A DNA stretch of 64,000 bases from Paenibacillus sp. FSL H7-0331 (GTDB taxonomy: Bacteria > Bacillota > Bacilli > Paenibacillales > NBRC-103111). The position numbers and the translations under genes were made by a program. Below the pieces are notes generated by a model. The model was not told where the DNA came from and did no database searches. It saw only the letters and a list, made by a program, of their open reading frames with translations. Shown piece by piece: positions 3,690-38,190 of the stretch (positions are counted from its first letter, which is position 1; each line of letters begins with the position of its first letter). Location: positions 248,001-312,000 of the forward strand of contig NZ_MRTH01000004.1 of assembly GCF_001956045.1 (NCBI RefSeq), in the 5' to 3' direction.

Positions 3690-5321
3690 ATGTCTACTAA
3701 AAAGTTTGCTCTGTTAGTCGTGACACTAGTATTTTCAACTACAACTGTGTTAGCTGGATGCACAAGCAGCAATCCGCCTGCTGCGAAGCCTGGGGACACT
3801 GCTGCACCTCAAGCAGGCACGGGTACGATGATTACCGATAAACCGTTAACAGTTACAGGCTGGACTGATTTTATACCTGCACCGGGCTCAACGGGAGTCA
3901 GCAGCTATAGCGATCAGATCCTGTGGAAGGAAATTGCGAAGAAAACGAATATTTCCGTGAAGTGGGAAACGACAGCCGCCCCGGCAGCAGATGAATTTAA
4001 GCAGCAGTTGGGTCTGATCATGGCTTCAGGTAAAATTCCAGATATTATCGGACATATCGATCCACTGCTGGCTGATCAGTACGGCCGTCAAGGCGCACTA
4101 CAGCCGTTGGAGGATTTGATTAAGAAAAATGCGCCTAATCTCCAAAAGATTCTGGATAGCACCCCAGCGGTAAAAGGTCAAATCACCTCACCTGATGGGC
4201 ATATTTATTTCTTCCCGAGGCTGCTGCTGGACCCTCGTACGCAAGCGTTTGCAGGATATATGATCCGCGGGGATTGGCTGCAAAAGGTTGGGATGAAGGC
4301 TCCGGAAACGACGGATGAATTGTATCAGGTTTTGAAAGCGTTTAAAGAAAAGGATCCGAACGGAAATGGCAAGGCGGATGAGATCCCCTTCACCGACAAT
4401 CCGAACCCGATTATCTGGGCGTTTGGCGTAGGCAGCCGAGGTCCGAACAGCACCGATGATTTCTTCGTAGAGGACAGCAAAATCAAATACGGTCCGACCG
4501 ATCCGCGCTACAAGGATGCCTTGCAATATTTGAACAAGCTGTACAGTGAGGGATTGCTGGACCCTGAATACGAAAAAATGAAAGGTGATGTGCGTGACGG
4601 CAGAATTATGAATGAGCAGTCCGGCTTCATCTACGGCTCGAATGCAGGTTACCTGACCAAATATAACAAAATGCTGCAGGGTGCGGGCAAAACTCCTGGC
4701 TTTAACGCACTAGCGGCTCCCAAAGGACCAACAGGGGAACGCAATATTCTCGGTAGACATAATGAAATCGATCCTGGTCGTGGCGTGTCCATTTCCAGCA
4801 CAACCAAAAATGCGGTAGAGCTAACGAAGCTGATGGATTACTTCTATTCCAAGGAAGGAGCTACGCTGCTGTACTTCGGTACAGAAGGCGATACGTACAC
4901 GATGAAGGACGGTGTACCCACCTATACAGATAAGGTGGCGAACGATCCGAAGCTTGATATTCTCGGATATCTGAATACGTATGTCGGGTATGTCAGCGGC
5001 TGGCCTTCCGCACAAATTCCTGAGCATTATTTGGCTACGCTCAGCGACGAAGGAAAGAAAGGCAACGCACTGGCCGTGCAGTACGCAGGCAAGAAGAAGG
5101 TTCCTGCACTTCACTTTACCCAGGAGGAGCTGAACGAGGTGCAAACGCTTCAAAGAGATATTAACACGTATATCGATGAAAATATGAATGCCTTTATTCG
5201 CGGGAAGAAACCATTCAGTGAATATGACGCCTTCCAGGCGGGACTTAAAAAGATCGGCTCGGATAAGCTGGCTGAGTTGTATGGCAAGGCTTATGCCCGA
5301 TTCATCGCTGCGCTTAAGTAA
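3690..5321 (+). CDS. Extracellular sugar-binding lipoprotein, LplA-type
   Basis: Substrate-binding protein of a CUT1 importer, anchored outside the membrane. The start is a hydrophobic signal peptide ending in the lipobox LAGC (Cys near residue 23), followed by a low-complexity Ala/Pro linker. The body (about 543 residues) is typical of the large LplA/YtcQ binding proteins, including a DPNGNGKADEIPF segment common in this family and probably calcium-binding. ATGs also occur in frame at 3675 and 3684; AGGAGG at 3678-3683 best fits ATG 3690 (spacing 6). Two permease genes and a beta-propeller gene follow in the same direction. Expression is probably controlled by the divergent AraC regulator and the cre-like site upstream. 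Confidence 0.9.
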   Translation: MSTKKFALLVVTLVFSTTTVLAGCTSSNPPAAKPGDTAAPQAGTGTMITDKPLTVTGWTDFIPAPGSTGVSSYSDQILWKEIAKKTNISVKWETTAAPAADEFKQQLGLIMASGKIPDIIGHIDPLLADQYGRQGALQPLEDLIKKNAPNLQKILDSTPAVKGQITSPDGHIYFFPRLLLDPRTQAFAGYMIRGDWLQKVGMKAPETTDELYQVLKAFKEKDPNGNGKADEIPFTDNPNPIIWAFGVGSRGPNSTDDFFVEDSKIKYGPTDPRYKDALQYLNKLYSEGLLDPEYEKMKGDVRDGRIMNEQSGFIYGSNAGYLTKYNKMLQGAGKTPGFNALAAPKGPTGERNILGRHNEIDPGRGVSISSTTKNAVELTKLMDYFYSKEGATLLYFGTEGDTYTMKDGVPTYTDKVANDPKLDILGYLNTYVGYVSGWPSAQIPEHYLATLSDEGKKGNALAVQYAGKKKVPALHFTQEELNEVQTLQRDINTYIDENMNAFIRGKKPFSEYDAFQAGLKKIGSDKLAELYGKAYARFIAALK

Positions 5322-23444: not shown

Positions 23445-24611
23445 TTGGAATTGAGTAAAGCGATTATTAACGTGCTTGAGAAATATGCTCCAAAGCTGAT
23501 TGACCTGAAAAAACAGCTAAAGTCGGTATCATCTGACGAAAAAATGATCATGGGTCAGCTTGATGAAGAGATTAACGGATACAGCTCATCCCTTATTAAT
23601 AAGAAGATATATGAACTCAAGCGGATCTCAGGAAAAATAGTTGAGACTCGAAATGATATTTCCCAAAAAATCCTGATGAATCTTGAAAATCATAGCACCC
23701 CCAATGAAGAGCTGTTTGAGCAGCAGGAATATTTGGAAATGCAGATTTTGATTCTGGAAAAAGCTATTCAGAGAAAGCAGGAACAGAACCGCCAATTCAG
23801 CCATAGCGTAGAGCGGAATTTTATTGACCATCCATTTATTTCTTCAACGACTCCCAATGAGTCCACGCTAAAGCTGAGACGTAACCAAAAGGGAATTCTC
23901 GAATTGAATAAGTCCGGGTTCAGAAACCTTTTTTATCAAAATAGCAATGGAACTCTGCTGCTGCCTTATGACGCGCGTAATTTATTCGGTGTTTTTAAGA
24001 TGTGGGAGCAAAAGGGGAAGACCAAGGAATTTGAATTCGCTTTTAAAGAGCTGCTGCATAATGTGAATGCTGATATTAACGGCGGCGAATACGATACCCT
24101 GCATACGAGCCTGGATAACCTCGGTAAAACGTCGATTGTAATGGAAGAGTTTTATGATGCGGAAGCTAAGAAACGCAGAAGAACGAAAATTCATAATCCT
24201 TTTCAGGATGTCGATATCGATCGAGACACGAATACGGTCTTTATGAGGCTAAGCGATGATTTGTATAAAAACCTTCTGGCCGGCAACGTGGTGTCGATCA
24301 GTATTTCGCTGTTTAATGACCTTGCCACACCTACCTCAAAGAACTTGTATTTGATTGTCGTTAACAAAACAAAGGATCGCGAATTTGTTCTTGAGGTCGA
24401 AGCCTTGATTAATCATTTGGGTCTGAACACGAATGATAATTACAAAGCCTATGTAATGCTGAAAAACTCGTTTGATGAGCTGCAAAATTTTGATGTTATC
24501 CGTAATTATGAAATCGTCAAGAAGGGCCGGGTGCCGGTTAAGGTTATATTTGAACCGAGCGAATGGCTGCAAAAAGCGACGGATACGATCGAGGAACGAT
24601 TGCTTATTTAA
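23445..24611 (+). CDS. Plasmid-type replication initiator (Rep-like) protein
   Basis: Protein of 388 residues with no signal peptide. The N-terminal 150 residues are charged and helical, probably coiled coil. The rest resembles winged-helix theta-plasmid initiators: residues about 280-375 include SLFNDLATPTSKNLYLIVVNK, EALINHLGLN and a beta-hairpin ending VKVIFEPSEWLQKA, the usual order of a Rep winged helix. The call rests mainly on context: a promoter with an iteron-like operator just upstream and 13 iterons just downstream. The start is TTG 23445 (AAAAGG and GGTTGGTG precede it). The exact Rep family cannot be named from sequence alone. It may bind the iterons and recruit host DnaB/DnaA. 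Confidence 0.65.
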   Translation: MELSKAIINVLEKYAPKLIDLKKQLKSVSSDEKMIMGQLDEEINGYSSSLINKKIYELKRISGKIVETRNDISQKILMNLENHSTPNEELFEQQEYLEMQILILEKAIQRKQEQNRQFSHSVERNFIDHPFISSTTPNESTLKLRRNQKGILELNKSGFRNLFYQNSNGTLLLPYDARNLFGVFKMWEQKGKTKEFEFAFKELLHNVNADINGGEYDTLHTSLDNLGKTSIVMEEFYDAEAKKRRRTKIHNPFQDVDIDRDTNTVFMRLSDDLYKNLLAGNVVSISISLFNDLATPTSKNLYLIVVNKTKDREFVLEVEALINHLGLNTNDNYKAYVMLKNSFDELQNFDVIRNYEIVKKGRVPVKVIFEPSEWLQKATDTIEERLLI

Positions 24612-24620
24612 CCCGAGAAG

Positions 24621-24644
24621 CCTCTTCATCCGAAGAGGTTTTTT
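24621..24644 (+). terminator. Rho-independent terminator of rep-like gene
   Basis: CCTCTTC/GAAGAGG stem with a 4-base loop, then six T. It stops transcription before the iteron array. Confidence 0.9.
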
Positions 24645-24661
24645 AATATGTCCATGTCAAA

Positions 24662-24967
24662 CACCTCTCTACTACGAAATAAAACACCTCTGCACTACGA
24701 AAAAATGAAAAAAAGTAACTTTTTCTCGATCTTTTTCCCACCTCTGTACTACGAAGTAAACACCTCTCTACTACGAAAGACCTCTCTACTACAAAACAAA
24801 CACCTCTCTACTACGAAATGAAACCACTCTGCACTACGAACCACCTCTCTACTACGAAAACGAACCACTCTGTACTACGAAGTAACCACCTCTGCACTAC
24901 GAACCACCTCTCTACTACGAAAAATAACACCTCTGCACTACGAAGTAAACCACCTCTGTACTATGAT
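24662..24967 (+). repeat. Iteron array: 13 direct 17-bp repeats
   Basis: Consensus CACCTCTSYACTACGAA, all on the same strand, starting at 24662, 24685, 24739, 24761, 24779, 24801, 24824, 24842, 24865, 24887, 24905, 24928 and 24951. Start-to-start steps are 18, 22 or 23 bases, close to whole helical turns for most, with one 54-base step after the second copy. That gap (24702-24738) is very A/T-rich with a GAAAAA..TTTTTC inverted repeat and could be the melting region. Copies at 24824 and 24865 begin CCACTCT; those at 24779 and 24951 are degenerate. The pattern matches origins of iteron-controlled theta plasmids. Repeats abut with 1-6 bases between them, so this is not CRISPR. Confidence 0.93.
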
Positions 24968-25045
24968 TGACCAATCTTAATCTTAAATGGTATTGTCGAA
25001 AATACTGGAATCCTGTTTAACGATCCTGAGTGTTGGGGATCACAC

Positions 25046-25070
25046 AAAAAACCTCCGCTGTCAGCGGAGG
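25046..25070 (-). terminator. Strong terminator for a leftward transcript
   Basis: Perfect 9-bp stem CCTCCGCTG/CAGCGGAGG with six A on the left side, which read as six T on the reverse strand. In the forward direction there is no T-run, so it serves a transcript coming from the right. Confidence 0.8.
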
Positions 25071-25256
25071 CTTCTCTGGGAAGTAAGGTCGCCAAACCTT
25101 ACTCTCCGAGCACCAGATTGCACTGGATACTCATATTGTCGATAAATCCATACCGGTTGCAGCTGTTACCAGCAGTCAGCAACCTCACCCAACCTTAATC
25201 CGCAAAAAAACGGCGCGATTGAAGGTCTGCTTAAATTTTGTCTTTTAAGGGATTGT
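25046..25256 (-). ncRNA. Candidate small RNA upstream of second replication-like gene
   Basis: A reverse-strand promoter (TTTACA, 17 bases, TACAAT; see 25238-25291) and a strong reverse-strand terminator (25046-25070) bracket about 210 bases without a convincing reading frame. The RNA would contain a hairpin GTAAGGT/ACCTTAC (25083-25102) and a weaker one near 25155-25182. It points toward the iterons and away from the gene at 25343, so it is not antisense to that gene's main mRNA. It might act as an origin transcript, a copy-control RNA or a type I antitoxin-like RNA. Inference only. Confidence 0.4.
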
Positions 25257-25291
25257 CCGTATATTGTAATGAATTGAACTTGTCCTGTAAA
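25238..25291. promoter_or_regulatory. Overlapping back-to-back promoters
   Basis: Forward: TTGTCT (25238-25243), 16 bases, TATATT (25260-25265), toward the gene at 25343. Reverse: TTTACA (25291-25286), 17 bases, TACAAT (25268-25263). The two -10 boxes overlap, so the promoters should compete for polymerase. Confidence 0.5.
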
Positions 25292-25342
25292 GTTTTTTTT
25301 CAAATTAACCAGTTAGTCTTCGGAAGGAGGTATGATCGACCC

Positions 25343-26704
25343 ATGGGAGAAGCCAAGCGAAAGTCAGACGTAAACCGCAGCGAGAGCTATTTGCTGCTGG
25401 ATAATAAGAATCTGGGCAGCACTTATCCCGTCTCGGTAGATCATACCTTCCTCACCGATCTATTCAATCTGGAGAAATCCTATGCCAGCGATTCGGTGGT
25501 CATGTTTCGTAAGAACAGCCATCCACTGCGTAAATTTCACGTCACAGGAACGACTATCCGTTTCATGATGACGATCTCGCGCCGTTTTAATACAGAGGGG
25601 ACGCTGGCAGGCTGTCCGCTGCACCGTCTGTATCAATTGATGGCCGAGGAGTATGAGGAAAGCTGCACGAAGGAGCAATTTTACGCGGAGGCTCACAAGC
25701 TTATTGCCCTTGGCATCCTGTCCGTTTCACGCAGCGGGATTATTAATGAGTGGAAGCTGGAGTCCTTTAAACGGGAGACAGGCCGTTTTGTCTTGTTTCA
25801 CCCTCTGGTGTTCACCGCCGCGTTTACAGATTTGCCGATTGCCGCTCAAAAGCTGTATTTGTATATGGTGAACAAAAATGGTGAAAAGCTGAAGCATAAA
25901 GATAAAGAGCTGCTCGGACGCCATTCGTGGTTGTATACTCTCACTCATAAATCACGCCCCGCGCAGATTCGGGAATTATTACATTCACTTTCTGAGTTGG
26001 AGATCAATGGGCAGCGGCTATTTCTCGAATGCTCGGTGGAAAAGGATTCGCTGGGCCGTTGGGCTGTTCATTGGGTGCTCAACCCGGCCTTCGTTGTTCA
26101 GCATGTGCCTGGTGCGCATTACCGTATGGTTCCGAAGGCAAAAATCCCCTACTCGCAAACGGTCTCTCGTCTGCGTCAGCTGTTCAGCTTCTATCGGATT
26201 TCTGAGGTAGAGCAGCTTGGCAATGGCAATGTGTTCCTCGGTTTGGCTCAACTGTTACATCATGCAAGCATGACCATACTCCGTTATGCAGCAGCCCGGA
26301 TTCGGGACATCGTAATGCGCTACGGTTTTCATGGTATGGACTTAGTCAGTATGCTTACTGTTGAGCTAGAGGACCGTTCCTTCGCTGCCTATATGGAGGT
26401 TATGAAGGAAACCGGAGCTTATCGGTATATAGAGGCCTTCGAAAATGAGGGCGTGTATGCTGAAGCAAGGCCGCTCCAGTTCTTCCGCGCGATTAAGGAC
26501 AAGTTCTCGCTTCGCGAATTTGCCAAGGTCTGCAGCAGGGCAGTCGCTGAGCTTGGAGAGCGGTATAGCAACCCGATGAAGACACCTATCTCTTCCGCGG
26601 ACGAGCACAGGTTCAGAGATAGTGCTCTTCATCATGAGGTTTTTTACCTGGAGGATCTCCTGCTTGAGCTTAAATCATCTATGAATGGAAAAGTGACTGC
26701 GTAG
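25343..26704 (+). CDS. Second replication-like DNA-binding protein of the iteron module
   Basis: Cytoplasmic protein of about 453 residues. I do not recognise a precise family. Residues about 75-240 look like tandem winged-helix units (TLAGCPLHRLYQLMAEEY, KEQFYAEAHKLIALGILSVSRSGIINEWKL, LPIAAQKLYLYMVN), as seen in DnaD-like or plasmid initiator proteins. The C-terminal third is helical. The N-terminus is basic (MGEAKRKSDVNRSE). GGAAGGAGG (25322-25330) is 12 bases before ATG 25343, a long spacing; no better in-frame start was seen. It lies directly downstream of the iterons with its own promoter, suggesting a replication initiator, helicase loader or copy-control factor. The replication role is inferred mainly from position. 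Confidence 0.5.
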   Translation: MGEAKRKSDVNRSESYLLLDNKNLGSTYPVSVDHTFLTDLFNLEKSYASDSVVMFRKNSHPLRKFHVTGTTIRFMMTISRRFNTEGTLAGCPLHRLYQLMAEEYEESCTKEQFYAEAHKLIALGILSVSRSGIINEWKLESFKRETGRFVLFHPLVFTAAFTDLPIAAQKLYLYMVNKNGEKLKHKDKELLGRHSWLYTLTHKSRPAQIRELLHSLSELEINGQRLFLECSVEKDSLGRWAVHWVLNPAFVVQHVPGAHYRMVPKAKIPYSQTVSRLRQLFSFYRISEVEQLGNGNVFLGLAQLLHHASMTILRYAAARIRDIVMRYGFHGMDLVSMLTVELEDRSFAAYMEVMKETGAYRYIEAFENEGVYAEARPLQFFRAIKDKFSLREFAKVCSRAVAELGERYSNPMKTPISSADEHRFRDSALHHEVFYLEDLLLELKSSMNGKVTA

Positions 26705-28691: not shown

Positions 28692-30818
28692 ATGTCCAAA
28701 GCAACCAAGAAGCTGCTTATTACTGCATCTGCCTCTGTATTTCTAATGGCAGCAACTGCCGCACCTACCTTCGCAGCTCCGTCCAATCCGGGCTACTATG
28801 TAGGCAATCAAAAATATCTGCTTAGCGATATAGCAGCAAACCCAAGCCTGCTCGTACAATTGAACAATAACTTGAATACGAAGGGGCTTTCCAGTTTTAT
28901 TGCGGATTTACCTGAGGGCCGACTCAATTATGCCCAATTCATGGCTGCGAATCCTGGTAAGCTTAATCTGTCTGCTTTTAAAACATTCGCTGCTGCGCAT
29001 CCTGCAGTCATTCCGGCTGACGCCGTTATCATACGCCCTGATGGAAGAGAAGAACGCGATCCTGACTCACCGCTGCCTGGAATAAGTGTGCAGAATGGAC
29101 TCATTACCATTAGCTTTAGTAGTGCGCCTTCGGTCACACCTACTATTAAAGACTTCGTTGTTACACAATCGGTGTATGGAGGCAGTAATCCTCAGGTTAT
29201 CGTTCCTTCGGGTCTCCAGCTGAATTCAGACGGTACCATGGTATCGCTGAGTGTACCCACAATAGCTGCAACGGATATTGCTCAAAGTATTGTATACACA
29301 GTGGCTTACAAGCTCTCCAGTACGGTATCAGCAGGTTTTACATTGGCCGCCAACCCAACGACGGGACAGCCGGTAGAGCAGGCAGCGATAAGTACCGTAA
29401 GCGCGGTGAACGGAACCATCACAGTGAACTTCAATAAACCCGTATCTGTCGCCGAAGCAACCTATGGTATGAAGATTAGTCGGTCCATAGATGGTGGAAC
29501 AGGCTCAACTGAGGTACCTTCCCTGGTTCAAGCATCCGGTAATACCGTTACCTTTAAGGTGGCTGAGGTGGGACAGACGGCTGCTAAACAAAGTGTGGTA
29601 TACAGTCTATCCTATATGAATGGAACTACCATCAATACGGTGGGCTTTACCGTAGCCAAGATTCCTGATGCGGTTATCAACTCAGCTAGCGCGGTGAACG
29701 GAACCATCACGGTTATTTTCGATAAGGCTGTATCTATCGCCGAAGCGACCAAGGGCATGATGATTATTCGGTCCATAAATGGTGGACAAGTCTCGACCGA
29801 GGCACCTTTACCGATTGAAGTATCTGGTAACACCGTTACCTTCAAGGTGAACGAAGTGCAATTTACAGATGCAGATCAAAACGTCGTGTACAGCTTGTCC
29901 TATTTGAATCAAACCGCCTACAATACGGTGGGCTTTACCGTAGCCAAGATTCCTGATGCAGTTATCAACTCAGCTAGCGCGGTGAACGGAACCATTACGG
30001 TTAATTTCGATAAGGCTGTATCTGTCGCCGAAGCGACCAAGGGCATGAAGATTAACCGGTCCATAAATGGTGGGCAAGTCTCGACTGAGGTACCTTTATC
30101 GATTGAAGCATCTGGTAGCACCGTTACCTTCAAGGTGAACGAAGTGCAATTTACAGATGCAGATCAAAGTGTGGTGTACAGCTTGTCCTATCAGAATCAA
30201 ACTGCCTACAATACGGCGAGCTTTACCGTAACCAAGATTATTGTTAGTGCGGTTAACGGTAGCGTGACCGTCAAATTTACAACAGTCGAAACAGTAAGTG
30301 AAGCTATTTACCAAAATCTTAAGTTCAAACAGTCGATTGACGAAATGACACCTACTAATGTAACTCCAACAGCTTCTGTGCTGGATTCTGTGAATAATTC
30401 GGTTACCTATACCGTTCCAGCTCTTCAAAAACTGTATACGGAGCAAAGCGTCACCTATAGTGTTTACAACGGTGGAAGCATTGCAGTAGGATCGGCTTCA
30501 TTCAAAATACATAAATTACAATCACCAACGATTAATACTCCTGTCAGTCTCAATAATGGAAATAAAACAGTAACTGGAACTGGAGAACCCGGGTTTAAAA
30601 TGAAGGTAACAATTACCGATGGAATTAATTCTATAGATAATTCTGGTGAGGAAGTTACAGTTGGAATAAATGAGATAGATAACAAGTATTCTATCTATTT
30701 TTCTACCAAAGTTTACTCATTAATAAACGGCCCTATTACCCTTACAGTAACACAGCGTGATACTGATAACGGCAGAGAACAAACAATTAGTGGTATCACA
30801 GGAACCAAAAGTCCATAA
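28692..30818 (+). CDS. Secreted protein with tandem Ig-like repeats
   Basis: Exported protein of 708 residues. A signal peptide ends near PTFAAP (residue about 29), and an N-terminal domain of about 100 residues precedes a short charged linker. Repeats of 96 residues follow, each with the pattern SAVNGTITVxFxKxVSxAEATxGMxIxRSIxGG...VTFKV...VVYSLSY; three are closely alike and others before and after are diverged. There is no SLH domain, transpeptidase motif or membrane helix, so attachment to the wall is unclear. The neighbouring SLH protein may anchor it. AAGGTGAGAA precedes the ATG. Likely a surface fibre or adhesin-like protein; function not proven. Confidence 0.8.
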   Translation: MSKATKKLLITASASVFLMAATAAPTFAAPSNPGYYVGNQKYLLSDIAANPSLLVQLNNNLNTKGLSSFIADLPEGRLNYAQFMAANPGKLNLSAFKTFAAAHPAVIPADAVIIRPDGREERDPDSPLPGISVQNGLITISFSSAPSVTPTIKDFVVTQSVYGGSNPQVIVPSGLQLNSDGTMVSLSVPTIAATDIAQSIVYTVAYKLSSTVSAGFTLAANPTTGQPVEQAAISTVSAVNGTITVNFNKPVSVAEATYGMKISRSIDGGTGSTEVPSLVQASGNTVTFKVAEVGQTAAKQSVVYSLSYMNGTTINTVGFTVAKIPDAVINSASAVNGTITVIFDKAVSIAEATKGMMIIRSINGGQVSTEAPLPIEVSGNTVTFKVNEVQFTDADQNVVYSLSYLNQTAYNTVGFTVAKIPDAVINSASAVNGTITVNFDKAVSVAEATKGMKINRSINGGQVSTEVPLSIEASGSTVTFKVNEVQFTDADQSVVYSLSYQNQTAYNTASFTVTKIIVSAVNGSVTVKFTTVETVSEAIYQNLKFKQSIDEMTPTNVTPTASVLDSVNNSVTYTVPALQKLYTEQSVTYSVYNGGSIAVGSASFKIHKLQSPTINTPVSLNNGNKTVTGTGEPGFKMKVTITDGINSIDNSGEEVTVGINEIDNKYSIYFSTKVYSLINGPITLTVTQRDTDNGREQTISGITGTKSP
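29641..30216 (+). repeat. Two 288-bp tandem repeats inside the repeat-protein gene
   Basis: Units 29641-29928 and 29929-30216 are nearly identical with an exact 288-base (96-codon) period. The preceding unit (about 29353-29640) is a diverged copy. Confidence 0.85.
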
Positions 30819-31957: not shown

Positions 31958-32719
31958 TCACACCGTAATCACGCTAATCCCGAGCTCCTGCAGTCGTTCT
32001 AGCGTTTCCTTGCCTATGCGACGGTCCGTAATAATGACATCGACCTCGGACAAATCGGCAACATGCGTGAATGCCTGCACGCCGAATTTACTGGAATCGG
32101 CCAATAGAATGACCTCATCCGCCATGCCGATCATCTTTTGCTTAATACGGGCCTGCAGCTCGTTGGATTCGCTGATGCCGCGGTCAAGATGAACGCCCTT
32201 GCACGATAGGAACACTTTATTGACATGGTAGGCGTCCAGGGAACGCTCGGCCAGTGGCCCTACGAAGGACAAGGAACGCTGCGCTAATATGCCGCCTGTT
32301 GAGATGACTTCGATCTTTTCCTTACTGCTCAGCTCCGTTGCGACCTTGATTGCATTGGTCAATACGGTGAGAGACAGATCAGGCAGATCGGCAGCCATAT
32401 ACCAAGCCGTCGAACTGGCATCCAGCAAGATACGATCCTTCAGGTCGATCCGCTTGATCGCTTCCTGAGCTATTCGTTTCTTCTCATCGGCATAGGTGAT
32501 TTCCCGTTCAGCATATGGAATTTCCGGCTGCTGATTGTCCTTGACACTGACCGCTCCGCCATGCGAGCGGCGCAGTCGTCCGGCTTGCTCCAAGCGGTCC
32601 AGATCACGGCGAATCGTCTCCTCCGTAACCTGACATAGCTCGCTCAGCTCAGAAACTCGGATACCGCCTCTTTCGTTGACCAAACCTACAATCTTTTCAT
32701 AACGCTCCGCAACCAGCAT
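31958..32719 (-). CDS. rhaR: DeoR-family regulator of rhamnose operon
   Basis: Repressor of 253 residues. N-terminal DeoR helix-turn-helix (IRVSELSELCQVTEETIRRDLDRLEQAGRLRRSHGG, about residues 20-55), then the DeoR sugar-phosphate-binding domain (about 75-240) with LDASSTAWYMA, STGGILAQRSLSFVG and LLADSSKFG. GAGGG precedes the ATG. It is the last gene of the rhamnose operon, as in Bacillus where a DeoR-type RhaR is induced by rhamnulose-1-phosphate. The large TTTG-rich inverted repeat before rhaEW (38150-38190) is the likely target. The name is by context and family. Confidence 0.85.
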   Translation of the reverse strand: MLVAERYEKIVGLVNERGGIRVSELSELCQVTEETIRRDLDRLEQAGRLRRSHGGAVSVKDNQQPEIPYAEREITYADEKKRIAQEAIKRIDLKDRILLDASSTAWYMAADLPDLSLTVLTNAIKVATELSSKEKIEVISTGGILAQRSLSFVGPLAERSLDAYHVNKVFLSCKGVHLDRGISESNELQARIKQKMIGMADEVILLADSSKFGVQAFTHVADLSEVDVIITDRRIGKETLERLQELGISVITV

Positions 32720-32744
32720 GCTTACCCTCTTTTCACAAACAATG

Positions 32745-34220
32745 TTATTCAGTCATTCCTGTCAGCTTCAGAAATTGATCATAGGCGTCGGCCCACAGAT
32801 CTTGTGCTTCAGGTTCATAAGTGATAATGCTAAAGGAATCCCGGATCACCTGACGCGCTTCCCATATGTCCTGAAACACCCCTTGGGCAATCCATTGAAC
32901 GGCCATATTGCCGATAGCGCTGCCTTCAGATGGACCCGCCCATACCGGCTTGCCAATCGCATTAGCTGACCATTGGCAGAGCAGCGTATTTTGAATGCCT
33001 CCGCCAACCATATGCAAACCGTTAAACCGCTGCCCGGACAAGCGTTCCGTCATTTCAAACACGTAGCGGTATTTGAGAGCAAGGCTTTCGAGAATGCAGC
33101 GAACGATTTCACCGACCGTTTCAGGGGCTTGCTGTCCAGTTTGACGGCAATATTGGGCTATTCTTGAAGGCATATCTCCAGGAGCCAGAAACAGGGCATC
33201 ATCAGGATCTATGAACGCCTTGAATGGCTGAGCAGCTCCGGCCAATTGTACTAATTCGGGAAAAGCATACGATTTTCCTGCTTTCTCCCACACGCGGCGG
33301 CTTTCCTGCAAAATCCACAGGCCCATAATATTTTTGAGCAGGCGATAAGTACCCTCGACGCCACCTTCATTGGTAAAATTGAGCTTCTGCGCCATTTCAT
33401 TAATGACGGGCTTGTGAACCTCGGTTCCCATCAGCGACCAGGTGCCACAGCTCAAGTAAGCAAAGGATCGATCCGTAGCCGGAACCGCTGCGACGGCAGA
33501 TCCTGTATCGTGTTCGGCAACCGCATAAACGGGAATCGAAGGTATGCCCAGCTCTTCACAGACGGATGCTTGCAGCATACCGGCTTGACTTCCAGGCTGC
33601 AGCACATCGCCAAACCACGATGCAGGGAAATCCAGCAGTCGGAGGAGCTCAGCATCCCAATCACCTTTAACGGGATTGAACAGTTGGGTCGTTGTAGCAT
33701 TCGAAAACTCATTGTGCATCTCGCCCGTCAAGAAATACCTCAGCAAATCCGGAATCATCAAAAACCGATTATCTGCCTGCAGCCAAGGGGAGTTAGCCTG
33801 TTTGAGCGCAAACAACTGAAATATTGTATTAAACTGCAAAAACTGAATGCCTGTTCTCCCAAAAATAACCGACGCCGGGATCTGTGCAAACAAGGTTTCC
33901 ATCATATCTTCCGTATGTCGATCCCGGTAATGATAAGGGTTCCCAACCAGCTCACCATTTTTGCCGATAAAGCCAAAATCAACGGCCCATGAATCAATGC
34001 CGATGCTGTTTACTTCAATTCCCTGGTTTTTGGCGATTAGCAGTCCTTGCTTAATTTCATGATACAGCCGTAAAATATCCCAATGCAAGCGGTCGCCCAC
34101 CTGCACCGGATCATTGGAAAACCGATGAAGCTCCGTGATTTCGATCTTGCCATCTGTAAGGCGACCAAGCAGCGCTCTGCCGCTGCTCGCCCCCAGATCA
34201 AAAGCGACAATGTTCCCCAA
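32745..34220 (-). CDS. rhaB: L-rhamnulokinase
   Basis: Cytoplasmic FGGY-family kinase of 491 residues that phosphorylates L-rhamnulose to L-rhamnulose-1-phosphate with ATP. It starts NIVAFDLGASSGRALLG, the phosphate-1 motif with the typical rhamnulokinase Ala-Ser-Ser-Gly-Arg, contains AVAEHDTGSAVAAVP and SCGTWSLMGTE of the family, and ends with the adenosine motif HMVGGGIQNTLLCQWSANA. The start is TTG 34220 after AAGGGTGAT. It lies 23 bases after rhaA and 25 bases before rhaR in one operon. Confidence 0.93.
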   Translation of the reverse strand: MGNIVAFDLGASSGRALLGRLTDGKIEITELHRFSNDPVQVGDRLHWDILRLYHEIKQGLLIAKNQGIEVNSIGIDSWAVDFGFIGKNGELVGNPYHYRDRHTEDMMETLFAQIPASVIFGRTGIQFLQFNTIFQLFALKQANSPWLQADNRFLMIPDLLRYFLTGEMHNEFSNATTTQLFNPVKGDWDAELLRLLDFPASWFGDVLQPGSQAGMLQASVCEELGIPSIPVYAVAEHDTGSAVAAVPATDRSFAYLSCGTWSLMGTEVHKPVINEMAQKLNFTNEGGVEGTYRLLKNIMGLWILQESRRVWEKAGKSYAFPELVQLAGAAQPFKAFIDPDDALFLAPGDMPSRIAQYCRQTGQQAPETVGEIVRCILESLALKYRYVFEMTERLSGQRFNGLHMVGGGIQNTLLCQWSANAIGKPVWAGPSEGSAIGNMAVQWIAQGVFQDIWEARQVIRDSFSIITYEPEAQDLWADAYDQFLKLTGMTE

Positions 34221-34243
34221 AGGATATCACCCTTATTCGTTAA

Positions 34244-35506
34244 TTAGTTTCCGCGTTTAAGCAATACTTCCTGCTCATAGGTTTTTACTTCTGCCAGCCA
34301 CTCTTCACGCACCGGCACGCCTTTGGACGCGCAATAGTAATCCCAGATGGCGCCGAAAGGATAGGACTTGAACTCTTCCGTCAATGCCAGACGTGTAGTG
34401 TAGTCGCCTTCAAGCTCCGCTTTCTTCAGGGCTTCCACAGGATCAAGCATCGCACGCATCAGTGCTTTGATCGTGTTGCGTGTGCCGATTACCCAAGCCG
34501 CTACACGGTTAATGCTCGCGTCGAAGAAATCGAGGCCAATATGTGTTTTTTCAAGCAGATTGCCGCGCACTAATTCTCTGCCGATCTCGATCAGCTCATC
34601 GTCCAGCGTTACCACGTGATCGCTATCCCATCTCATCGGGCGGCTGACGTGCAGCAGAATGCCATCGGTGAAGAGGGCAAGGGATGACAGCTTGTTGGAG
34701 ATAACCTCTGTCGGGTGGAAGTGACCTGCATCCAGGCAGATCAGCTTGTTATTTTGGATGCCATAGCCCATATAGAACTCATGGGAGCCGACCACGTACG
34801 CTTCTGAGCCGAGTCCAAACAGCTTGCTTTCAACGGCGTCCAGGTTATAGGCTGGATTGAGCTCTTCAGCGAATACTTCGTCCAATGCTGATTTCAGGCG
34901 CTGTCTTGGTGCCATACGGTCTGCCGGAACATCCTTGTAGCCATCTGGAACCCATACATTTGTGACGCAAGTTTGACCCAATTGCTCACCGAAAAAGGCG
35001 CCGATTTTTCTTGAGGTTTTGCAGTGATCGATCCAGAATTGACGAATTTCCGGGTCGGAGTGGCTTAAAGTAAATCCATCCTTGGATTTTTCATGGGAAA
35101 AACAAGTCGGATTGAAGTCCAGACCCAAGCCTTGCTCCTTGCACCAGTCTACCCATTTTTGAAAATGCTTGGGTTCCAGCTCATTCAGCTCGACCTTTTC
35201 ATCTGTATCCGCATAGATCGCATGGAGATTTACTTTGTGCTTGCCAGGAATCAAAGAGAACGCTTTCTCCAAGTCTGCTCGAAGCTGTGCAGGGGATTGT
35301 GCCGCTCCAGGATAATTACCGGTTACGGAAATACCACCGGTCAAATCTTGATCACGATTAAGGAATCCTTTTACATCATCGCCTTGCCAGCAATGCATCG
35401 AAATTTTGACTTTTTCCAGCTGTTCGAGCACTTGATCGACGTTGATGCCATGAGCTGCATACAGTTCTTTCGCTAATTCATAATTGGCTTGAACATTTTT
35501 GTCCAT
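34244..35506 (-). CDS. rhaA: L-rhamnose isomerase
   Basis: Cytoplasmic metal-dependent TIM-barrel enzyme of 420 residues that converts L-rhamnose to L-rhamnulose. Family landmarks are [13 protein letters not shown] near residue 36, [25 protein letters not shown] with Asp/His metal ligands, and DSDHVV and [27 protein letters not shown] lies before the ATG. Length and motifs match RhaA throughout. It follows the small ASRT-type gene and precedes rhaB. Confidence 0.96.
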
Positions 35507-35524
35507 TGGTTAAGCTCCTCTACC

Positions 35525-35902
35525 TTAGGATTTGATGGGATAAGCGATGACTGACATCAGAGCATTCTCGGCCTGAGTCGTATCCAGACGGCTGTATTGT
35601 ACAATAATCGGAATATGGCTTTGTACTTCAATCGCATAGGGAACACCAAGTGGAATAGACGTTCCTTCCTTGGTAGCCAGGGAGCTCGTGCGGATATGCT
35701 TGGTCCGGCGACCGGCAACCGTTTCCTGAATGTCCTCAAGAGGAGGACGGTCCTCGAAAAAAATCGTAATGGTAATGTGTGCATCCTCCGAAGAGGTGTT
35801 CAATACGCAGATTGATTCGTGGCTGGTTAACGTTCCGGAGCTGAACTCCGGAATGTAACCATCAGGAATAATCCAAAGCTTTTCCCCTGTAGCAGACGGC
35901 AT
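35525..35902 (-). CDS. ASRT (sensory rhodopsin transducer) family small beta protein
   Basis: Protein of 125 residues of the family named after the Anabaena sensory rhodopsin transducer (PF07100): KLWIIPDGYIPEF near the start, then a beta-sandwich pattern (ESICVLNTSSEDAHITITIFFEDRPP, HIRTSSLA, GVPYAIEVQSHIPIIVQYSRLDTTQAENALMSVIAYP). No rhodopsin is nearby; family members in non-photosynthetic bacteria often sit with sugar genes, so a sugar-binding role is likely. It lies in the rhamnose operon, 18 bases before rhaA, where some Bacilli have the RhaM mutarotase. GGAGG precedes the ATG. Family call fairly sure, role unknown. Confidence 0.8.
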   Translation of the reverse strand: MPSATGEKLWIIPDGYIPEFSSGTLTSHESICVLNTSSEDAHITITIFFEDRPPLEDIQETVAGRRTKHIRTSSLATKEGTSIPLGVPYAIEVQSHIPIIVQYSRLDTTQAENALMSVIAYPIKS

Positions 35903-35939
35903 GTCATAGCCTCCTTTTAATAGTAAATCTATGAGTTAT

Positions 35940-35994
35940 CCGATGTATACAAAGGGGTAAACATGCCTTCATTGTATTGGTTTGTATACATCGG
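35940..35994. promoter_or_regulatory. 14-bp perfect inverted repeat inside the rhamnose operon
   Basis: CCGATGTATACAAA (35940-35953) and TTTGTATACATCGG (35981-35994) with a 27-base gap; each arm also contains the small palindrome TGTATACA. It lies in the 126-base gap between rhaEW and the ASRT gene. It could be a double operator for an internal promoter or an RNA hairpin. No matching regulator is identified. Confidence 0.6.
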
Positions 35995-36028
35995 AGTACA
36001 CTTAAAAACATACTTGCACAGACAATGA

Positions 36029-38098
36029 TTAACGAGTGAATGCAGCAGGAACGCCGCCGTCAATTGTTAGCATGCAGCCGGTTGTTTTATCGGATTTGGA
36101 AGATGCAAAGAAGGCAATTCCTTCAGCAATATCACGCGGATAAATATTAACGAGCAGGGTGGTACGTTTACGATAATGCTCTTCCAGTTGATCGGGTTCA
36201 ATGCCGTAGGCAGCGGCACGTTCATTGCGCCAGCTTCCGTTCCAGATCGCAGAGCCTTGCAGGATCGCATCCGGCAGGATCGTATTGACGCGAATACCGA
36301 ATTCTCCGCCCTCTGTAGCGATACAACGTGCGAGATGAGCTTCCAGTGCTTTGACAGAGCTGTATGCGGATGCGCTTTTTCCGGCATATATGGAATTTTT
36401 GGAGCCAATGAATACCATGTTACCGCCGATGGCTTGTTCCTTCATCAGGATGAAGGCTTCACGGGCCACAAGGAAATATCCCGTTCCGAGCACGTTCATA
36501 TTCAGATTCCATTCCTTCAACGATGTCTGATCAAAGGGGCTCGAGGTGGCAAGACCGGCATTATTGACGATAATATCGACACCACCGTAGGTGATGGAAG
36601 TCTCAGCATAAGCAGCTTGAATCATTTCTTCGCTCGTTACATCCATCTTGACGGCAATCGCGCGGTTCTCTCCATACTTGGCATTGATTTCTGCCGCTAC
36701 CTTCTCGGCACCCTCCAGGTTAAGGTCGGCCAGTACGACATGCGCACCTTCAGATACAAGACGACGAGCCGTTTCACTGCCAATCCCGCCAGCTCCGCCG
36801 GTAATAAATGCAATTTTGCGGGAAAATTCCGCTTCTGCAGGAGCGAGTGACAATTTGTAAAGCTCTAATGGCCAATATTCAACATTATAGGATTCGTTTT
36901 CACTTAGCGATACGAATTGACCCAGAGCGGTAGCGCCTCTCATGACAGCTATTGCACGGTGATACAAAGCGCCGCTAACCTGTGACATCGCCCAGCTTTT
37001 ACCCGTGTTGATCATACCTACACCCGGAATCAGAATGACACGCGGCGCAGCTTCAAACATTACATCGCCTTCATTTTTGTTACGATCGAAGTAAGCTTTG
37101 TACATTTCTTTATATGCAGCGACGCCTTCTTTTAGCTTCGCTTTCAAACCTTCGATATCGTCTGCATTGGGCGTCCAGTCTATGAACAGGGGAACAACCT
37201 TTGTGTGGACGAGATGATCCGGGCAAGCCGCACCAACCTGGGACAATGCTGCGGAGTTGTGTCCGCCTACAAATTGCAGAACATCGTCGGCATCGTCGAA
37301 CGAAAGAATCATCTTCTTGGCATCGCTCACTGCGCCGCGAATCGTCGGCATCACTTGTGCAGCCACGGTTCTGCGTACATCTGCAGCAAGTGCTGCATGC
37401 TTCACACCACCAAAAACCTGCTCTTCTTTAATGCGTGCTTCGATGAAGTTTTCCGCTTCGGTAATGATTTTGATCGTTTGGGCGTAAGCCGCTTCAGACG
37501 TTTCGCCCCAAGTGACCAGGCCGTGTTTTTCCATAAGGACAAGCTCAGCCTTAGGGTTGTTCAGCACGCCTTCTGCGATCATTTTGGAGAGCGTGAAGCC
37601 GGGACGAATATAAGGGACCCACACGAAACGGTCTCCGAAAATTTCTCTTGCCAGCTCCTTGCCATTATCGGCGCAGCAGAGACTGATGATGGAATCAGGA
37701 TGGGTATGGTCAACGTGTTTAAATGGAAGAAAAGCGTGCAGCAGCGTTTCGATCGATGCGCGTGGATGTTTGGCGTCAATCATGCAATTTGCCAAATAAG
37801 CGACCATTTCTTCATCGGGCATTTCCGATTTCTCAAATAAAGGACGAATATCCTCCATACGCAAGCCTGTAAAATTAGACGCTTTCATGGAAGCCAGGTC
37901 AGAACCGCTGCCTTTGACATACATGACCTCTACGTCACGACCACGGAAATCCTTGACGATGGTTTTGCTGGACGTATTTCCTCCACCATAATTGCATACG
38001 CGACGATCCGTACCTATCAGATTGGAACGATAGACGAGTTGATCCAGACCGGTGACTTGCTCTGATGCTTTAGACGCTTCCCACAAACTTTGTACCAT
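36029..38098 (-). CDS. rhaEW: Bifunctional rhamnulose-1-phosphate aldolase/lactaldehyde dehydrogenase
   Basis: Cytoplasmic fusion of 689 residues. Residues about 20-400 form a class II aldolase domain (GGGNTSSK, zinc ligands in HVDHTHPDSI, MEKHGLVTWGE) that splits L-rhamnulose-1-phosphate into dihydroxyacetone phosphate and L-lactaldehyde. Residues about 425-689 form a short-chain dehydrogenase (GGAGGIGSETARRL cofactor loop, NNAG, YSSVKALEAH with the Tyr/Lys pair) that oxidises lactaldehyde. Such fusions are known in Bacillus as RhaEW (formerly YuxG). GGAGG precedes the ATG. It is the first gene of the operon, under a promoter with a large inverted repeat. Confidence 0.92.
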   Translation of the reverse strand: MVQSLWEASKASEQVTGLDQLVYRSNLIGTDRRVCNYGGGNTSSKTIVKDFRGRDVEVMYVKGSGSDLASMKASNFTGLRMEDIRPLFEKSEMPDEEMVAYLANCMIDAKHPRASIETLLHAFLPFKHVDHTHPDSIISLCCADNGKELAREIFGDRFVWVPYIRPGFTLSKMIAEGVLNNPKAELVLMEKHGLVTWGETSEAAYAQTIKIITEAENFIEARIKEEQVFGGVKHAALAADVRRTVAAQVMPTIRGAVSDAKKMILSFDDADDVLQFVGGHNSAALSQVGAACPDHLVHTKVVPLFIDWTPNADDIEGLKAKLKEGVAAYKEMYKAYFDRNKNEGDVMFEAAPRVILIPGVGMINTGKSWAMSQVSGALYHRAIAVMRGATALGQFVSLSENESYNVEYWPLELYKLSLAPAEAEFSRKIAFITGGAGGIGSETARRLVSEGAHVVLADLNLEGAEKVAAEINAKYGENRAIAVKMDVTSEEMIQAAYAETSITYGGVDIIVNNAGLATSSPFDQTSLKEWNLNMNVLGTGYFLVAREAFILMKEQAIGGNMVFIGSKNSIYAGKSASAYSSVKALEAHLARCIATEGGEFGIRVNTILPDAILQGSAIWNGSWRNERAAAYGIEPDQLEEHYRKRTTLLVNIYPRDIAEGIAFFASSKSDKTTGCMLTIDGGVPAAFTR

Positions 38099-38143
38099 GC
38101 TTATACCTCCGTATGAATGTTTATTTGATTTTGTTTACATCTT

Positions 38144-38190
38144 ATCATATTTGTTTGTGTTTGAATATATCAAATTCAAACACAAACAAA
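38144..38190 (-). promoter_or_regulatory. rha operon promoter with 16-bp inverted-repeat operator
   Basis: Reverse strand: TTGATA (38173-38168), 18 bases, TATGAT (38149-38144). Arms TTTGTTTGTGTTTGAA (38150-38165) and TTCAAACACAAACAAA (38175-38190) are perfectly complementary with a 9-base gap, so the operator covers the -35 box and the spacer. TTTG-rich sites are usual for DeoR-type repressors. Confidence 0.75.

Follow-up and report, generated by a model that had tools for sequence, protein, structure and literature searches.

A 64-kb window of DNA from Paenibacillus sp. FSL H7-0331, which is the whole stretch analysed here, contains a gene for a plasmid-type replication initiator, followed on the same strand by an array of direct repeats and a second long reading frame, ORF B. 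This raises the question of whether the window belongs to a plasmid or to a chromosome and, if the latter, why a chromosome would keep such a module. Integrated plasmid replicons are usually regarded as transient or silenced. In this case, it is probable that the complete core of a large-plasmid replicon sits in the main chromosome and is conserved there; this judgement concerns identity, location and conservation, and the role of the module is weighed separately below.

Chromosomal position of the module

The earlier note on this DNA left two possibilities: part of a large plasmid or chromid, or a plasmid replicon captured in a chromosome. On the right of the module, positions 31958-38190 are collinear (79-84%) with the single-contig chromosomes of two congeners, G098 (1,282,920-1,289,086) and G100 (6,573,933-6,580,032). 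This anchor is about 1.29 Mb from dnaA in G098 (if circular) and 1.37 Mb in G100. The same flank is found in five further congeners, and neither repA nor ORF B is present at the six of these seven loci that were examined. Paenibacillus periandrae and Paenibacillus sp. 1_12 carry the module with equal right-hand genes from 31.96 kb on. On the left, the window's neighbours are present in P. sp. 1_12 from 17.4 kb on; in P. periandrae, 13.7-23.2 kb is missing.

The orthologous contig of P. sp. 1_12 is 831 kb long. At a distance of some 470 kb from the module, roughly half of a 20-kb stretch on it matches both G098 and G100 (72-78%). Since this second anchor is 4.5 Mb from the first in G098, and the two are also far apart in G100, gene order has been rearranged. 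Of the 41 bins of 20 kb along the contig, 40 have negative GC skew (the exception, at 780 kb, is +0.002); the sign does not flip at the module (547-550 kb), and most genes point the same way. Skew and gene orientation are those expected of one arm of the main chromosome and do not suit a circle with its replication start at the module. With 150 of 404 candidates scored, Rfam gave 68 tRNAs, none of which is on this contig; ARAGORN finds one tRNA-Pro there. Within the window, the GC-skew shift that the earlier note had proposed to look for near 24.7 kb is not seen as a lasting change, and a change near 31 kb falls where the genes switch direction.

As argued from its own flank and its orthologues, the window is main chromosome. 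Flank collinearity with single-contig chromosomes, the match to both of them in a stretch about 470 kb away and a single sign of skew over 831 kb speak for capture in a chromosome and against a large plasmid, and the locus is not a chromid in the sense of a separate replicon with a plasmid-type origin. In Pfam, the five neighbouring proteins are an oxidoreductase, an SLH protein, an Ig-like protein, an acetyltransferase and a DeoR regulator, none of them plasmid-like. The Ig-like repeat protein (28692-30818) adjoins an SLH-domain gene and has 2.9 copies of a 288-bp tandem repeat (29400-30239); the orthologous loci have only parts of this stretch.

The iteron array

Repeat and pattern scans place 13 direct copies of an iteron with the core CTCTSYACTACGAA at 24662..24967 (plus strand). 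The 14-letter pattern is exact in 11 of the 13 copies, with one mismatch in the copy at 24782 and two in the last, at 24954. Together with a stray two-mismatch match at 4464, the window has 14 pattern matches; 100 dinucleotide-preserving shuffles average 0.82 and never exceed 5. The steps are, in order, 23, 54, 22, 18, 22, 23, 18, 23, 22, 18, 23 and 23 bases. The pattern scan and the shuffles thus bear out an earlier description of 13 direct copies with steps of 18, 22 or 23 and one A/T-rich step of 54. The long step contains no iteron, and its gap between iterons 2 and 3 (24705..24737, no strand assigned) is a candidate unwinding element. The orthologous loci of P. periandrae and P. sp. 1_12 both have arrays, and both keep the 54-base step.

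The region had also been called a classic theta-plasmid origin. This is apt as far as direct repeats of about 20 bp beside a rep gene are concerned; it is less so in that an exact DnaA box is missing and that an antisense-type leader and a second gene with an initiator fold go with the array. In a scan of the intergenic region with the DnaA box consensus, there was no exact match, and sites with one mismatch numbered 1 (0.92 expected). In Rep3/RPA iteron replicons (mini-F RepE, pPS10), a winged-helix initiator adjoins direct iterons, as is apparently so in the window, and the RepE fold is shared with ORF B. Unlike these, the window has two initiator-fold proteins flanking one array, mixed steps of 18 and 22-23, and an antisense-type leader before the second gene; the lack of an exact DnaA box is a further difference.

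A search for the iteron elsewhere, as the earlier note had advised, gave a divided answer. None of 72,556 plasmid records matches the array, and the same iteron (core ACCTCTSYACTACGAA) is also absent from the viral contigs searched. However, it occurs in a plasmid-like gene setting in G066 (presumed Paenibacillus cremeus), on a 10-kb contig, which is the one copy known outside the three lineages. In P. periandrae (G001) and P. sp. 1_12 (G101), matches to an exact two-iteron pattern are confined to the array, and no further operator of this kind is visible.

RepA and ORF B

The repA gene (23445..24611, plus strand) encodes a 388-aa initiator of RPA/Rep3 type, as judged by Pfam and Foldseek. Its product scores above the Pfam cut-offs for both RPA (PF10134; 40.4 bits, cut-off 27) and Rep3_N (PF01051; 27.1 bits, cut-off 22.4), and the Rep-like gene that had been noticed beside the array is therefore confirmed. 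Translation may start at 23451, the second TTG, which is also the start of orthologue P0001 in the alignment. In Foldseek, the C-terminal half of RepA resembles RctB (E 1.2e-5) and RepE (E 5.3e-5), from a poor model (pLDDT 67.9, pTM 0.38), and superpositions of both domains of this model (pLDDT 67.9) are at about 10 A. A hairpin with a following T run, CCTCTTC-ATCC-GAAGAGG (24621..24645, plus strand), is probably the repA terminator; it was found by eye, and the terminator scanner gave no report for it.

ORF B (25343..26704, plus strand; 453 aa) has a Shine-Dalgarno sequence, AAGGAGGT, at 25324. There is no match to it in Pfam or NCBIfam, and hhalign gives a probability of 1.7 to the RepA profile. 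Residues 26-250 model as the double winged helix of RepE, and the two winged helices superpose on RepE54, so that the structure model points to a second initiator-fold protein. Its homologues number 38; the named ones are mostly called 'hypothetical protein', and two have a UniRef name of replication-protein type. At E <= 1e-10, ORF B is found in 14 of 104 genomes at family level and in 25 of 392 at order level. The initiator fold of 25343-26704, the running of the last iteron into a promoter-like site and the structured, apparently antisense locus did not figure in the earlier note.

The ORF B leader

The last iteron abuts the first box of a promoter-like site, TTGACC-N18-TATTGT with TG before the second box (24967..24996, plus strand), which would read into the ORF B leader; it scores 9/12 in the scan and is aligned in 11 modules. 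Facing it is the best site of the scan (10/12), TTTACA-N17-TACAAT (25263..25291, minus strand), the putative promoter of a predicted antisense RNA. The first box of the latter, GTAAAG in plus-strand reading, is found in 7 of the 11 aligned modules. Overall, the promoter scan gives little excess, with 7 matches against 4.7 expected in shuffles (sd 1.8).

The probable end of the antisense RNA is a hairpin, CCTCCGCTGTCAGCGGAGG, with a T run (25046..25070, minus strand), which was picked out by eye, is a stem in the predicted fold and is not among the reports of the terminator scanner. Hairpin search and fold alignment give a hairpin with the loop UUGGCG (25082..25103, minus strand), and alignment and fold give a second, interrupted hairpin with the loop UGGUAA (25155..25184, minus strand). 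Near the predicted 5' end, the alignment of 11 modules has a conserved box, GAAGGTCTGCTT (25221..25232, minus strand). Kissing antisense RNAs typically have U-turn loops like UUGGCG. For the minus strand of 25040-25232, the predicted fold has -75.9 kcal/mol (z -4.66), and none of 200 shuffles folds as well. One stem pair of the hairpin at 25082..25103 (columns 166/177) is, on the minus strand, A-U in P. sp. 1_12, G-U in P. periandrae and G-C in the window; read on the plus strand, the same columns are a mismatch in P. periandrae. Covariation over six leader sequences is weak overall (term +1.7).

The landmarks common to the 11 aligned modules are the last iteron, an ATTG(A/C)-like box, GTCGAA, an A-run with a terminator-like stem, hairpins and a GGYC-containing box. 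In 30 leaders, 26 of 109 perfect hairpins have the plus-strand loop GCCAA, GTCAA, TACCA or CACCA (on the minus strand UUGGC, UUGAC, UGGUA or UGGUG), against a mean of 0.55 and a maximum of 3 in 100 shuffles; the reverse-complement type is found in five real hairpins. This motif set was picked after the sequences had been viewed, the 30 leaders are not independent, and shuffle controls overstate significance because leaders and modules are related. A literature text search with UUGGCG found no paper, and no Rfam family scored as high as its cut-off anywhere in the window. From the promoter-like site, the fold and the layout, the leader is apparently an antisense RNA locus.

A comparable region is found in Pseudomonas plasmids, where a stem-loop control region with a putative antisense RNA precedes the rep gene and is swapped among rep families (PMC5304414). 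The Pseudomonas control module belongs to other Rep families, and the part of that source which deals with it describes no iteron array or second initiator.

Related replicons on large plasmids

The gene order of the module (RepA, iterons, promoter and predicted antisense leader, ORF B) is found with other iterons on large plasmids of Paenibacillus, Cytobacillus and Alkalihalophilus. The claim of a plasmid-type replicon was thus well founded, as gene order and array recur on large Bacillales plasmids. The plasmids bearing this replicon family are about 280-540 kb in size. RepA matches eight plasmid records and ORF B nine, with four in both lists, and in two further records (Cytobacillus and A. 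pseudofirmus OF4) ORF B is recognised by profile. Five of the six two-gene records were examined, two of them near-copies at the module; NZ_CP133769 is represented by the match lists only.

Like the window, P. polymyxa pPPM1a, P. amylolyticus pY5S7-1, Paenibacillus sp. 37 pART37, the 281-kb plasmid of Cytobacillus oceanisediminis and A. pseudofirmus pBpOF4-01 have repA, about 560-630 bp with iterons, and ORF B on one strand. They differ in their iterons, and several have conjugation or primase genes nearby, whereas the locus of the window is chromosomal. Between the window and four of these plasmids (all but pART37), RepA is 26-37% and ORF B 19-26% identical.

The comparison of arrays covered 22 modules with repA beside ORF B, after five loci (L004, L005, L012, L068 and L070) had been set aside in advance because they duplicate others. 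In every one of the 22, the best repeat is more numerous than in any of six mononucleotide shuffles. Many modules have steps of 18-20 and 22-24. The iterons themselves vary, and many combine a similar 3' half (TACTMCGA-like) with a variable 5' half. The two proteins, to judge by their identities, are shuffled against each other among modules: L032 and L034 have 58% identical ORF B and 19% identical RepA, and L032 and L047 have 47% identical RepA and 23% identical ORF B. Over 21 modules, iteron likeness is correlated with RepA given ORF B (partial r 0.30, permutation p 0.0025) and with ORF B given RepA (partial r 0.16, p 0.04). Because iteron likeness tracks RepA better than ORF B, this correlation among related sequences suggests that RepA reads the array.

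Some records at the edge of the family deserve mention. An ORF B homologue (24.7%) follows an A/T-rich repeat array in CP079755.1 (L013), the 'Klebsiella grimontii' plasmid pNY3A; the Klebsiella label may be wrong or the record contaminated. A 543,320-bp contig, the size of the module-bearing plasmid pART37, has a 16S rRNA gene (G350:C2:157941-159493). The P. periandrae assembly, whose own contamination estimate is 10%, contains three modules with three iteron sequences (C209, C215, C252), as expected for different compatibility groups.

Conservation of the captured module

The nearest RepA relatives outside the three lineages include those of P. abyssi (73%), P. cremeus (72%) and G364 (72%). 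Around the copies in G364 (L065) and P. cremeus (L006, L035) are genes for CHC2/DUF3854 primase-like, AAA_5 ATPase, Rad52-like and PD-(D/E)XK nuclease-like proteins, surroundings that are plasmid-like in gene content. In G066, repA and the array are on two contigs. A CAP12/Pycsar-effector TIR-domain gene (L035, 2561-3565) lies near ORF B and the primase-like gene on a G066 contig. Capture would have taken place in an ancestor of at least three lineages (those of the window, P. periandrae and P. sp. 1_12), with the rest of the plasmid lost and the module placed under strong purifying selection.

Compared with P. periandrae, where four genes are comparable, repA has no non-synonymous and 33 synonymous changes. 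Compared with P. sp. 1_12, it has six and 120, and its dN/dS of 0.008 is the lowest of eight genes. Fisher tests of repA against six neighbours give uncorrected p values from 0.039 (deoR) to 3e-11. The dN/dS of ORF B is 0.13 for P. periandrae and 0.09 for P. sp. 1_12. The synonymous divergence of ORF B to P. periandrae is 0.30, twice that of repA and two other genes (0.12-0.15), and exchange with another copy is a possible source. A frozen RepA is not the rule, because in the outside pair L033/L034 repA has 63 non-synonymous and 153 synonymous changes; this contrast is one well matched pair, which may lie on either kind of replicon.

A second chromosomal lineage

In five other congeners (G093, G097, G098, G100 and G102; two single-contig chromosomes and three drafts), ORF B is accompanied by a different upstream protein of about 480 aa and by TTTTTACN8CGTAC-like repeats. 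This protein has no Pfam match and weakly resembles RPA proteins (hhalign probability 76, E 2.2e-5). Brevibacillus halotolerans and P. thiaminolyticus have relatives of it (46-47%) whose names mark them as plasmid-borne. Its dN/dS is 0.007-0.027 (4 of 10 pairs, those with finite dS), and that of ORF B is 0.05-0.10 (5 of 10 pairs). In L042/L043, the sole pair with dS below 1, the values are 0.019 and 0.074. Judged by these ratios, the upstream protein is as constrained as RepA.

The second-lineage copies are 2.85 Mb (G098) and 2.98 Mb (G100) from dnaA, and there is no skew flip around them over 180 kb each. Pairs share the module alone within about 9 kb, save for L042/L043 (right flank) and a short extension among L041-L043, and movement of the module is conceivable. 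There may be a further chromosomal case in G075:C2, a 2.2-Mb contig with a copy at 1.87 Mb, because it has four 16S genes.

Possible roles of the module

The layout suggests how the module could work. RepA would bind the 13 iterons and, as the last iteron touches the first promoter box, could control the promoter into ORF B. Pairing of the ORF B leader with a convergent antisense RNA, about 200 nt long and bearing UUGG-type loops, would limit synthesis of ORF B, presumably the second, rate-limiting initiator, which perhaps recruits the helicase via its helical C-terminal part. The chromosomal origin would normally be quiet. Because the module is almost unchanged though nothing suggests that chromosome replication starts there, another job is probable. 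We tentatively propose that selection keeps it to exclude incoming plasmids of the same group, on which RepA, the iterons and the antisense RNA would act in trans; this is a serious candidate that still falls short of being probable.

It is very improbable that the module is the working origin of a large plasmid or chromid to which the window belongs: the family lives on plasmids of about 280-540 kb and Rfam, with 150 of 404 candidates scored, listed no tRNA on the orthologous contig, but collinearity of 31958-38190 with two single-contig chromosomes and five other congeners, the partial match of the distant stretch to both chromosomes, the tRNA-Pro gene, co-oriented genes and a skew that is negative in 40 of 41 bins without a flip at the module stand against it. 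An active or conditional second chromosomal origin is quite unlikely. The parts of the replicon are all intact and conserved, and two Vibrio cholerae strains with fused chromosomes differ in their plasmid-type origin, which one strain has in an active state and the other silenced (PMC6284228). As described there, V. cholerae ori2/RctB is like the window in being a plasmid-type origin inside a single chromosome, and RctB is among RepA's best fold matches; there, however, a whole secondary chromosome was fused, whereas the window retains only a core of about 3.3 kb. Against a second origin, neither skew nor gene direction changes at the module over 831 kb, and skew does not flip at the second-lineage copies over 180 kb each, although rare or conditional firing would leave no such trace, and the skew test is blind to it.

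Alternatively, RepA and its array could have been domesticated as a regulator, with ORF B or the RNA in a new chromosomal role. A non-replicative chromosomal rep homologue is known in Pseudomonas (PMC5304414). The stronger constraint on RepA than on its neighbours, which ORF B does not share, and the promoter-like site touched by the last iteron would agree with a regulator; the whole layout, array included, is nevertheless still that of a plasmid replicon, and the exact two-iteron pattern leads to no second operator outside the array in G001 or G101, which makes this reading unlikely. A decaying, functionless relic of an integrated element would explain why no plasmid-like gene is found in Pfam among the five neighbouring proteins. 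With repA at 0/33 and 6/120, ORF B at dN/dS 0.13 and 0.09, and array and leader kept, it is the least credible of the readings.

Plasmid exclusion, if it is the role, could extend beyond this locus. In the window's case, a replicon has been cut to its control core and is kept at one locus in three lineages, with an almost invariant RepA; in the parallel case, another upstream protein accompanies ORF B in five congeners, two of them with closed chromosomes. That Paenibacillus chromosomes have at least twice fixed a two-initiator replicon as an anti-plasmid device, in which a frozen initiator, iterons and antisense RNA bar plasmids of the same specificity while the origin is off, is a possibility that we regard as rather doubtful. 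The module also gives shape to a type of replicon with two initiators on large Bacillales plasmids, in which the second gene mostly carries a hypothetical annotation. Should the origin fire in certain conditions, these bacteria would possess a hidden second origin. If exclusion is true, incompatibility, a plasmid trait, would have been turned into chromosomal immunity.
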